Both the position numbers and the translations under genes were made by a program. A DNA stretch of 64,000 bases from Bacteroidota bacterium (lineage in GTDB: Bacteria > Bacteroidota > Bacteroidia > Cytophagales > Cyclobacteriaceae): positions 1 to 64,000 of the forward strand of contig VGMW01000007.1 of assembly GCA_016866235.1 (NCBI GenBank), read 5' to 3'. Below, in pieces: positions 37,580 to 45,252 of the stretch. The notes under the pieces are model-generated. The model ran no database searches. It was not told the origin of the DNA and saw only the letters and a program-made list of their open reading frames with translations. The first letter of the stretch is position 1. Each line of letters opens with the position of its first letter.

Positions 37580-38056
37580 TCAATTCGCCAGTTCAGCGAG
37601 CGCCAGGTTTCGATCCAGGCTTTCTTCCAGCGAAATCATGGTTTCAGTCCGTTCGATGCCTTCTACCTGCTGAATTTTCTCGTGTAAAACAGCCTTCAGG
37701 TGGTTGGTGTCCCGGCAATGGATTTTGGCGAACATCGAGTAGTTGCCCGTGGTATAATGGATACTGGTGATCTCTTGAATATCTTTAAGTTTTGCTAGAA
37801 CTTTATCATATAAAGCACTCTTTTCCAGGTATATACCGATAAATGCAGTGATGTCAAATCCGAGCTTGGCATAGTTTACACGCAGGGTTGTTTTCTCTAC
37901 AATCCCGGCCGCCTCCATCTTACCCATCCGAACATGGATGGTTCCTTGTGAAACAAATACCTTTTTAGCTACCTCCGTGTAAGGCTTGCTGGCATCCTGC
38001 ATTAAAACCTCAAGAATCTTGAAGTCTGTTTTATCAAGCTCCAAATTTTTAGCCAT
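37580..38056 (-). CDS. Lrp/AsnC family transcriptional regulator
   Basis: This 158-residue protein has an N-terminal helix-turn-helix (LDKTDFKILEVLMQDASKPYTEVAKK) and a C-terminal RAM domain that binds amino acids (IHYTTGNYSMFAKIHCRDTN). Lrp-type proteins often regulate amino-acid metabolism. It lies upstream of sufB on the same strand, 139 bases away, and might regulate that operon, though this is inference. The start at ATG 38056 gives the usual MAKNLELDKTDFKIL. The region upstream is AT-rich and shared with the divergent RNA gene. Confidence 0.9.
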   Translation of the reverse strand: MAKNLELDKTDFKILEVLMQDASKPYTEVAKKVFVSQGTIHVRMGKMEAAGIVEKTTLRVNYAKLGFDITAFIGIYLEKSALYDKVLAKLKDIQEITSIHYTTGNYSMFAKIHCRDTNHLKAVLHEKIQQVEGIERTETMISLEESLDRNLALAELAN

Positions 38057-38134: not shown

Positions 38135-38165
38135 TTGACAAAAAACCTACTTAAGACAAAATTTG
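38135..38165 (+). promoter_or_regulatory. Promoter of the tRNA-like RNA gene (TTG-N20-AAAATTTG)
   Basis: TTG at 38135-38137 and AAAATTTG at 38158-38165 are 20 bases apart, the preferred spacing of this phylum. The -7 element matches TAnnTTTG at five of six fixed positions. The expected start is near 38171-38173, about 18 bases before the tRNA-like fold. It points away from the Lrp gene and so must serve the RNA. Confidence 0.55.
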
Positions 38166-38188
38166 TTGCGTATTCAACAAATAACACA

Positions 38189-38336
38189 CTGTAGGGTGTT
38201 GGAATTTGGCAGACATGCCCTCCTGTCTCGGGGGTGAGGAAAAAGGGACAAACGCAGGATAAAGGGTTGACCACTAAAGTTTTCTTTCTGTCCTGTATCT
38301 AACCGCCTCGTGGAGGTTCGAACCCTCCCTCTACAG
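38189..38336 (+). ncRNA. tRNA-like RNA with class II cloverleaf and very long variable region
   Basis: The RNA folds as a tRNA. The acceptor stem pairs 38190-38196 with 38329-38335 (7 bp, one G-U), extended by C38189-G38336. The D arm carries the Leu-type sequence GGAATTTGGCAGAC, though its short stem has a T-T mismatch. An anticodon-type stem pairs 38218-38222 with 38230-38234 around loop CTGTCTC, giving GTC at 38225-38227. A perfect T arm pairs 38312-38316 with 38324-38328 around TTCGAAC. The variable region is 77 bases (38235-38311) instead of the usual 10-24. It can form a 5-bp stem (38235-38239 with 38306-38310) and a 6-bp stem (38245-38250 with 38289-38294). The anticodon loop has pyrimidines at 37 and 38, so ordinary decoding is doubtful. 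The gene has its own promoter and terminator. Confidence 0.6.
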
Positions 38337-38369
38337 CACGTTGTATTAAGGTTTGGTAAACGTCCTTTG

Positions 38370-38400
38370 AAAGCCCGGTTTCAGCCGGGCTTTTTCTTTT
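38370..38400 (+). terminator. Intrinsic terminator of the tRNA-like RNA gene
   Basis: A GC-rich stem (AAAGCCCGG with CCGGGCTTT) around a 6-base loop is followed by a long T-rich run. It lies 34 bases after the tRNA-like fold and 66 bases before fadD, on the plus strand, so it can only end a transcript that starts between the Lrp gene and here. Confidence 0.85.
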
Positions 38401-45082: not shown

Positions 45083-45148
45083 GGGATTAATTTTGGGTTC
45101 AATTTATGGCTGAAGGATGTTTGATCATCGCTTTGAGTCAAAAAAAAT

Positions 45149-45240
45149 GGCAAACCGAACATCGCACCGCTACAACCGCCTACCCTTGCTGTCTTCCGAC
45201 CCTGGGGGAGTTCAGCAGGAGCTGGTCGTGCCGATTTGCC
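45149..45240 (-). ncRNA. ffs: Signal recognition particle RNA (4.5S type)
   Basis: On the reverse strand this is a 92-nt hairpin RNA. The two ends pair over 9 bases (45232-45240 with 45149-45157). The conserved Ffh-binding tip has the GGAA tetraloop at 45194-45197, closed by GTC/GAC, with flanking asymmetric loops CAGG and CAGCAAGG. Eight T (45140-45147, A on the plus strand) follow the 3' end and end transcription. The upstream -7 element fits the predicted 5' end exactly. Confidence 0.9.
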
Positions 45241-45244
45241 GCCG

Positions 45245-45252
45245 CAAAGATA
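45245..45252 (-). promoter_or_regulatory. -7 promoter element of the SRP RNA gene
   Basis: Reading leftward, TATCTTTG matches the TAnnTTTG element perfectly, and transcription would start near 45240, where the SRP fold begins. No clear TTG is seen at -33. Confidence 0.65.

Follow-up and report, generated by a model that had tools for sequence, protein, structure and literature searches.

An RNA gene in the 64,000-nucleotide stretch of Bacteroidota DNA analysed here (“the window”) almost certainly belongs to a real, conserved RNA family of bacteria and phages, and this holds for the family and for its structure. The family is apparently undescribed: its RNA is shaped like a leucine tRNA, bears the recognition marks of an aspartate tRNA and has a huge extra arm, and no earlier description was found in the literature searched (most subscription journals lay outside its scope). 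Conservation in many related bacteria and phages points to a tRNA-like molecule working outside ordinary protein decoding. The reading we favour, nearly as likely to be right as wrong, is a re-specified, Leu-bodied RNA which would be processed like a tRNA, bound and charged by AspRS, and used in trans for a function outside standard decoding. The analysis shows the family, its structure and 3' end, the identity pattern, the linkage and the phage copies; we infer processing, charging, non-decoding role and partner.

Architecture and conservation of the RNA

The gene and its surroundings comprise the following features, given in window coordinates.

37580..38056, − strand: Lrp/AsnC-family regulator gene, the divergent upstream neighbour (PF01037 and PF13404 over cut-off)
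38135..38165, + strand: promoter-like element TTG ... AAAATTTG; the motif is enriched upstream of first copies
38190..38337, + strand: tRNA-like RNA body, position 1 to G73-C74 (covariance model R1 match, 135.1 bits, E 1e-39; the model's alignment contains this copy)
38190..38196, + strand: acceptor stem, 5' strand, TGTAGGG; 4/7 pairs changed on both sides
38199..38216, + strand: D arm of Leu type with a 3-bp stem; best match tRNA-Leu(cag) and tRNA-Leu(gag), ratio 0.92
38218..38234, + strand: anticodon arm CCCTC-CTGTCTC-GGGGG (G34 U35 C36 U37 C38) with a 5-bp stem; consensus closest to tRNA-Asp, 13/18
38235..38311, + strand: variable region of 77 nt, containing the V1, V2 and V3 helices and an internal loop
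38236-38239/38306-38309, + strand: V1 helix of the variable region
38245-38246/38303-38304, + strand: V2 helix of the variable region
38247-38252 / 38299-38302, + strand: internal loop of the variable region, GACAAA / CTAA
38254-38261/38289-38296, + strand: V3 helix of the variable region
38264..38273, + strand: apical motif of the variable arm, GGGTTGACCA; present in 75/173 host copies and 47/62 distinct viral copies
38312..38328, + strand: T arm GGAGG-TTCGAAC-CCTCC, from the sequence and the relatives' alignment
38329..38337, + strand: acceptor stem, 3' strand, CTCTACA (38329-38335), then G73-C74; GC in 170/170 family units
38369..38394, + strand: intrinsic terminator (11-pair hairpin), then a T-rich tail; the hairpin is enriched after last copies

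Downstream, the neighbouring gene encodes an AMP-binding enzyme. Elsewhere in the window (45144-45248, − strand) lies a small SRP RNA of the Bacteroidales type (74.6 bits).

The original prediction had described an acceptor stem, a Leu-type D arm, an anticodon-type stem and a T arm with TTCGAAC, with a 77-base variable region able to form stacked helices. Each element is present where it was placed, and the variable-region helices covary in relatives. A TTG promoter on the 5' side and an intrinsic terminator on the 3' side had also been proposed and are both there, with the weight coming only from comparison of many copies: in the window stretch alone, a generic scan gives one promoter-like and one terminator-like site, where shuffles average 0.7 and 0.8. 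The window copy's single-sequence folding energy is likewise no better than that of shuffles (z -0.38).

A nucleotide search found matches in 39 of 58 genomes, several with two or three (the 39 include the genome itself and one, G010, whose match spans the terminator region only). From 110 loci we obtained 107 distinct units, and 42 diverse units were aligned. All five helices hold across this alignment, with 98.9% of cells paired. Ten of the 25 modelled pairs are changed on both sides, the compensating changes that had been proposed as a check, and none of 500 shuffles reaches this number or the 98.9% pairing; sliding the alignment by 1-3 columns lowers pairing to 52-63%. The outer pair of the D stem is UA, AU, GC or GU in 32/42 relatives and unpaired in 10/42, and the window copy has a T-T mismatch there. 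What had been called “tRNA-like” thus stands as structure, since covariation is far above chance, and falls as a loose resemblance, since the RNA belongs to a conserved family.

The variable arm has a conserved core. Of 173 units, 152 fit the V2 motif (the other 21 were left out of both V2 counts), and in these the helix covaries: the inner, middle and outer pairs are formed in 150, 143 and 131 units, respectively, taking the first candidate partner, where an earlier count had used the best-pairing candidate and so leaned towards pairing. The outer pair is A-U in 55, C-G in 52 and U-A in 18 of the 152. One side of the internal loop is GAUAAA-like (GAUAAA 86, GACAAA 22, AAUAAA 17) and the other side is CUAA in 145/152. 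The apex carries GGGUUGA or a close variant in 75/173 host units.

Standard annotation passes over this widespread RNA. There is no ARAGORN call and no Rfam RF00005 match over it in the window, no Rfam 15 family reaches its gathering score there, and a relaxed scan of the surroundings gave only matches far below gathering scores. ARAGORN run on 32 host loci called only one copy, the short-arm L177, and on the phage loci only the short-arm L293 was called among family copies. The tRNA finder and the RNA library used miss the family because such an arm is not expected by them.

Several variant copies were seen. Short-arm versions with a near-normal variable loop, which ARAGORN calls tRNA-Asp, occur at L177:1501-1577 (genome G047) and in the phage locus L293:3825-3909, so loss of the arm is compatible with keeping G73-C74 and much of the loop. 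The copy at L196:2001-2147 (G167) has its anticodon loop shrunk to TC with the remainder largely kept, and is possibly a decaying copy. At L021, L053, L061, L075 and L167, palindromes like TCCCGATAGCTATCGGGA lie in the D loop or variable arm of copies or adjoining remnants, as if a small repeat element targeted the family gene.

Distribution, genomic setting and phage copies

A covariance-model search of relatives, another check proposed at the outset, gave matches in 95 of the 117 genomes of the order at an E value no higher than 1e-18. At least seven of the 22 without a match belong to family f21 (G056, G475, G487, G499, G521, G529 and G537) and have genomes of 0.7-1.2 Mb; the RNA seems dispensable in these reduced genomes. 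Across the class, 55 of 296 genomes have a best E below 1e-18, counting the genome itself and the short-arm form of G047, and the next-best matches are about 85 nt long and stay under 60 bits, like ordinary tRNA-Leu. In a draw of 148 genomes of the phylum, none of the matches listed from other classes exceeds 62.7 bits, the tRNA-Leu level: two read in detail (L178 and L179) are tRNA-Leu, and the others were judged by score and length. One match in the phylum draw (G355) is 183 nt long at 52.9 bits. The class and phylum searches ran with stricter filters that can lose weak matches, and many genomes and contigs are closely related, so the counts are not of independent events. Carriers reached via the neighbouring gene include Ohtaekwangia, Chryseolinea, Fulvivirga, Arcicella and Pedobacter arcticus; among cultured, harmless species, Ohtaekwangia koreensis has the RNA at L054, Arcicella rosea at L102 and Pedobacter arcticus at L107. 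Plasmids gave no match to the window copy at E 1e-5.

The divergent regulator is a frequent neighbour. It lies beside the RNA at 29 of 30 loci picked without the regulator as an anchor (the window's own included), and the exception ends at a contig edge. Among 50 more distant genomes it is present in 32, divergent every time, and absent in 18, one of which (G137) is cut by a contig end with 185 bases upstream, while the others were inspected over 1.5-2 kb of flank. We take this pattern to mean that the linkage is old but breakable and that the RNA acts in trans.

Copies also occur in tandem arrays, with neighbours 20-160 nt apart. The strict motif TTG-N18-22-T[AT]NNTTTG, which we take to be of the Bacteroidetes -33/-7 type, lies upstream of 51/142 first copies (shuffle mean 0.6) and of 0/35 later tandem copies. 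A terminator-like hairpin follows 58/143 last copies, compared with 1/143 when each was shuffled once. The family array looks like a tRNA operon cut into pieces.

The 3' end supports this likeness. An earlier pattern, used for the 107 units, demanded GC after the acceptor stem, so its count of 173/173 GC was partly built in. A repeat extraction not requiring GC agreed, giving 170 units with GC, two with AC, which are the ordinary tRNA-Leu genes L178 and L179, and one false inner match in L052; all 170 family units thus end in G73-C74. Model matches end in GC in 72/73 cases, the exception being a weak 27-bit match. The genome's 36 ordinary tRNAs all have an N73-C74 end, most of them without a full CCA, so the family RNA carries this genome's signature of tRNA maturation.

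Viruses carry the RNA too. A pattern scan of IMG/VR returned 62 contigs, 61 of which score 80 bits or more with the model; the remaining one (L274) is truncated by a contig end and scores 60 bits. This pattern fixes GTCTCG, so the loop of those 62 contigs is no evidence. A second pattern, which leaves the anticodon arm free and fixes parts of the acceptor and D arm, returned 36 contigs, 21 of them new and all 21 at 86 bits or more. Its units have the loop [CU][UG]GUCUC in 24/24, on 11 different fully paired anticodon stems (L309, whose loop on direct reading is TTGTCTC, is counted apart from these 11). The viral total is 83 contigs with 62 distinct full units, and the longest contig measures 326 kb. 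Contig ends truncate two of the copies, and all 81 others end in GC.

Many viral copies sit among tRNA genes, e.g., with 22 other tRNAs in L285, where a tRNA-Ser precedes the copy and a tRNA-Leu follows it, each at a distance of 4 nt, and with 25 plus a tmRNA in L243. A tmRNA gene is found at the same locus in eight cases, some near-identical to each other. Seven of ten neighbouring proteins match PHROGs families, with portal and terminase beside L298 and portal beside L293. The phage record LR756504.1 (636 kb) has a full copy, scoring 119.8 bits, in a 16-kb stretch where ARAGORN calls nine tRNAs; it was matched in INPHARED by the L273 and L239 copies as queries, and the window and L285 copies gave no INPHARED match. 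One report describes a curated phage of 636 kb and huge phages with as many as 67 tRNAs each (PMC7162821), and our guess is that LR756504.1 is that genome. The arm is reduced in some viral copies, being near-normal in L293 and a single hairpin in L307 and L308, so the giant arm is not universally required.

A second odd set was seen in nine viral loci (L237, L239, L240, L278, L279, L282, L283, L284 and L309). It has near-constant tRNA-Leu-like ends, AGTCAGGTGGCGGAATTGGTAGACGC ... ATACAGGTTCGAATCCTGTCCTGACTAC, a long varying stretch between them and no clear anticodon arm, and some phages have several, as in L237 (5129-5276, 6142-6262, 6477-6616 and 7682-7830, − strand).

That phages keep the RNA next to tRNAs, and at times next to tmRNA, suggests a function linked with the host's tRNA or translation economy. 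Its place in phage tRNA arrays is also relevant to the question of why tRNAs and tmRNA occur in phages in the first place. Phage carriage and the tRNA-like loop would also suit a tRNA decoy sacrificed to anticodon nucleases or other defences that cleave tRNA; the RNA's broad presence in host genomes argues against this reading, which is very unlikely. The first interpretation had also allowed a decaying tRNA-Leu with an insertion, for which the Leu-like D arm is the point in favour. We reject it as vanishingly improbable: the helices carry compensatory changes, and this is not a decaying gene because it is conserved across many families and carried by phages. The other option offered, a tRNA mimic or a tRNA that has diverged and taken on another job, gains support from family conservation, the covarying helices and the common promoter motif. 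That first interpretation holds in part, and lacked the Asp identity pattern, the tRNA-like G73-C74 end, the tandem arrays, the Lrp/AsnC linkage and the phage copies.

Aspartate identity and function

An Asp-reading loop in a Leu-type body had been predicted, and the comparison bears this out: the D arm is closest to the genome's own tRNA-Leu, and the family's anticodon-arm consensus is identical to the genome's tRNA-Asp at 13/18 positions (next best tRNA, 10). C38, which had been called unusual, is instead the tRNA-Asp norm, since among the genome's 36 ordinary tRNAs only tRNA-Asp has it.

Decoding tRNAs are expected to have U33 and a purine at position 37, both positions being tied to decoding, and tRNA-Leu is marked by A73. 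The family differs on all counts. Position 33 is U in 116, G in 55 and C in 2 of 173 distinct host copies, and position 37 is U in 158, C in 7 and G in 8 (i.e., pyrimidine in 165, purine in 8 and never A), with three copies left out of the 173: the weak match L201:1679-1792, L177 (short arm, loop CTATCTC) and L196 (anticodon loop mostly lost). Position 73 is G in 170/170 units, and the anticodon is nearly always GUC.

The neighbouring loop positions behave differently: in the same 173 copies, 34 is G in 168 (A, T or C in five), 35 is U and 36 is C in all 173, and 38 is C in 171 (A in two). According to PMC9976931, G73, G34, U35, C36 and C38 are the five strong aspartate determinants, and bacterial tRNA-Asp also uses the pairs G1-C72 and G2-C71. 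The five are thus kept in nearly all copies, together with G2-C71 (42/42 aligned copies), and the bacterial pair 1-72 is not kept, being U-A in 42/42 where bacterial tRNA-Asp has G1-C72 (PMC9976931), which counts against Asp charging. As an evolutionary signal, the aspartate identity is strong. Loop conservation separates positions that contact the synthetase (kept) from those that serve decoding (free), which allows a precise test of whether an Asp-RNA is set aside for use outside the genetic code, and for which use.

With G frequent at position 33 and a pyrimidine at 37 in almost every copy, the RNA should be poor at ordinary decoding. An extra, slow tRNA-Asp with a class II body, decoding GAU/GAC, would explain the near-constant anticodon (G34 in 168/173, U35-C36 in 173/173) and the place of the RNA within phage tRNA arrays. 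We nonetheless consider it distinctly improbable, given G33 in 55/173 copies and a pyrimidine at 37 in 165/173, an ordinary tRNA-Asp in the RNA's own genome and at several of the phage loci (L240, L243, L249, L265, L285, L286, L287 and L288), and no family RNA found in the seven reduced f21 genomes listed above.

Asp determinants kept without decoding features would also be expected of an AspRS-binding decoy or sensor, bound but uncharged, which tunes the supply of Asp-tRNA or the amount of AspRS. U1-A72 could hinder charging in such an RNA, but a pure decoy would not need the tRNA end G73-C74 seen in 170/170 units, and this reading is quite unlikely.

Unlikely as well is a base-pairing regulatory RNA, with the tRNA body lending stability and processing and the apical loop GGGUNGACCAC pairing with target RNAs. 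The apical motif recurs in many families and in 47/62 distinct phage copies, and the divergent Lrp/AsnC gene suggests regulated expression. However, only 75/173 host copies have the motif, and a mere scaffold would not need the near-universal conservation of G73 and the anticodon loop.

Kept synthetase contacts, free decoding contacts and a kept tRNA 3' end fit a processed, probably Asp-charged, non-decoding RNA, our preferred reading. Such an RNA would have arisen on a tRNA-Leu body and then been re-specified, with the leucine A73 replaced by G73 and the loop keeping the G34, U35, C36 and C38 which AspRS reads. Its own promoter would drive transcription, which in some genomes covers tandem copies, and the RNA would be excised from the transcript like a tRNA, as array position and the G73-C74 end suggest. 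AspRS most likely binds and charges it, and the Asp-RNA may then work outside standard decoding. In most copies a partner would dock on the variable arm, which contains the V2/internal-loop module and, in many cases, GGGUNGACCAC at its apex, and phages would carry their own copy among their tRNAs, keeping the function running during infection.

Some observations speak against this reading: the exceptions at G34 and C38, the L196 copy without most of its anticodon loop, and the short-arm viral copies. Class II synthetases approach tRNA from the variable-loop side, so the giant arm might clash with AspRS.

The survey of partner enzymes counts against it as well. AspRS/AsnRS/LysRS-type genes are alike in 12 genomes with the RNA and 12 without it. 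A dedicated extra AspRS was rejected as a candidate, none being seen: there are three PF00152 matches in 20 of the 24 genomes, and the remaining four have one more, which in two of them comes from a gene found in two pieces. A dedicated tRNA-dependent transferase of the PF09924 type gained no support, occurring in 1/12 genomes with the RNA versus 4/12 without.

Relation to known systems

With class II tRNA-Leu the family shares the D arm (ratio 0.92 to cag and gag), the 3-bp D stem, and an order of base 44, then the V stem, then two bases before the T stem. It differs in having G73 rather than A73, an Asp-type anticodon arm and, in the window copy, a 77-nt variable region. With tRNA-Asp it shares G34, U35, C36 and C38 in nearly all copies, G73, and 13/18 of the anticodon-arm consensus, whereas its class II body, U37 in place of A37, G33 in a third of host copies and U1-A72 set it apart.

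The pseudo-tRNAs of peptidoglycan synthesis have, to our knowledge, no giant arm. They are similar in that a tRNA is used outside translation, as described in the available part of PMC3399842. The same part reports tRNAOther of Bacillus cereus as a tRNA-like RNA with a non-translational, regulatory role, which is the shared feature; tRNAOther is reported only from the B. cereus group, has a Trp anticodon and is poorly aminoacylated, and, unlike for the family RNA, no giant arm or phage copies are mentioned in that part (PMC3399842).

Like the family RNA, tmRNA is tRNA-like, and it is processed by RNase P, but two reports (PMC3985003, PMC3929946) describe it as the upper half of a cloverleaf plus a coding part, whereas the family RNA is a full cloverleaf, and ARAGORN makes no tmRNA call in the window. 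Beside tRNA and tmRNA, the family could be a third kind of tRNA-derived housekeeping RNA, namely an adaptor that has a Leu-type body, is charged with Asp, does not decode and binds protein through its giant arm, kept by many bacteria of the class and their phages. This is possible, though we would sooner expect it to be wrong; if true, the RNA is important enough that large phages pack their own copy beside their tRNAs and sometimes their tmRNA.
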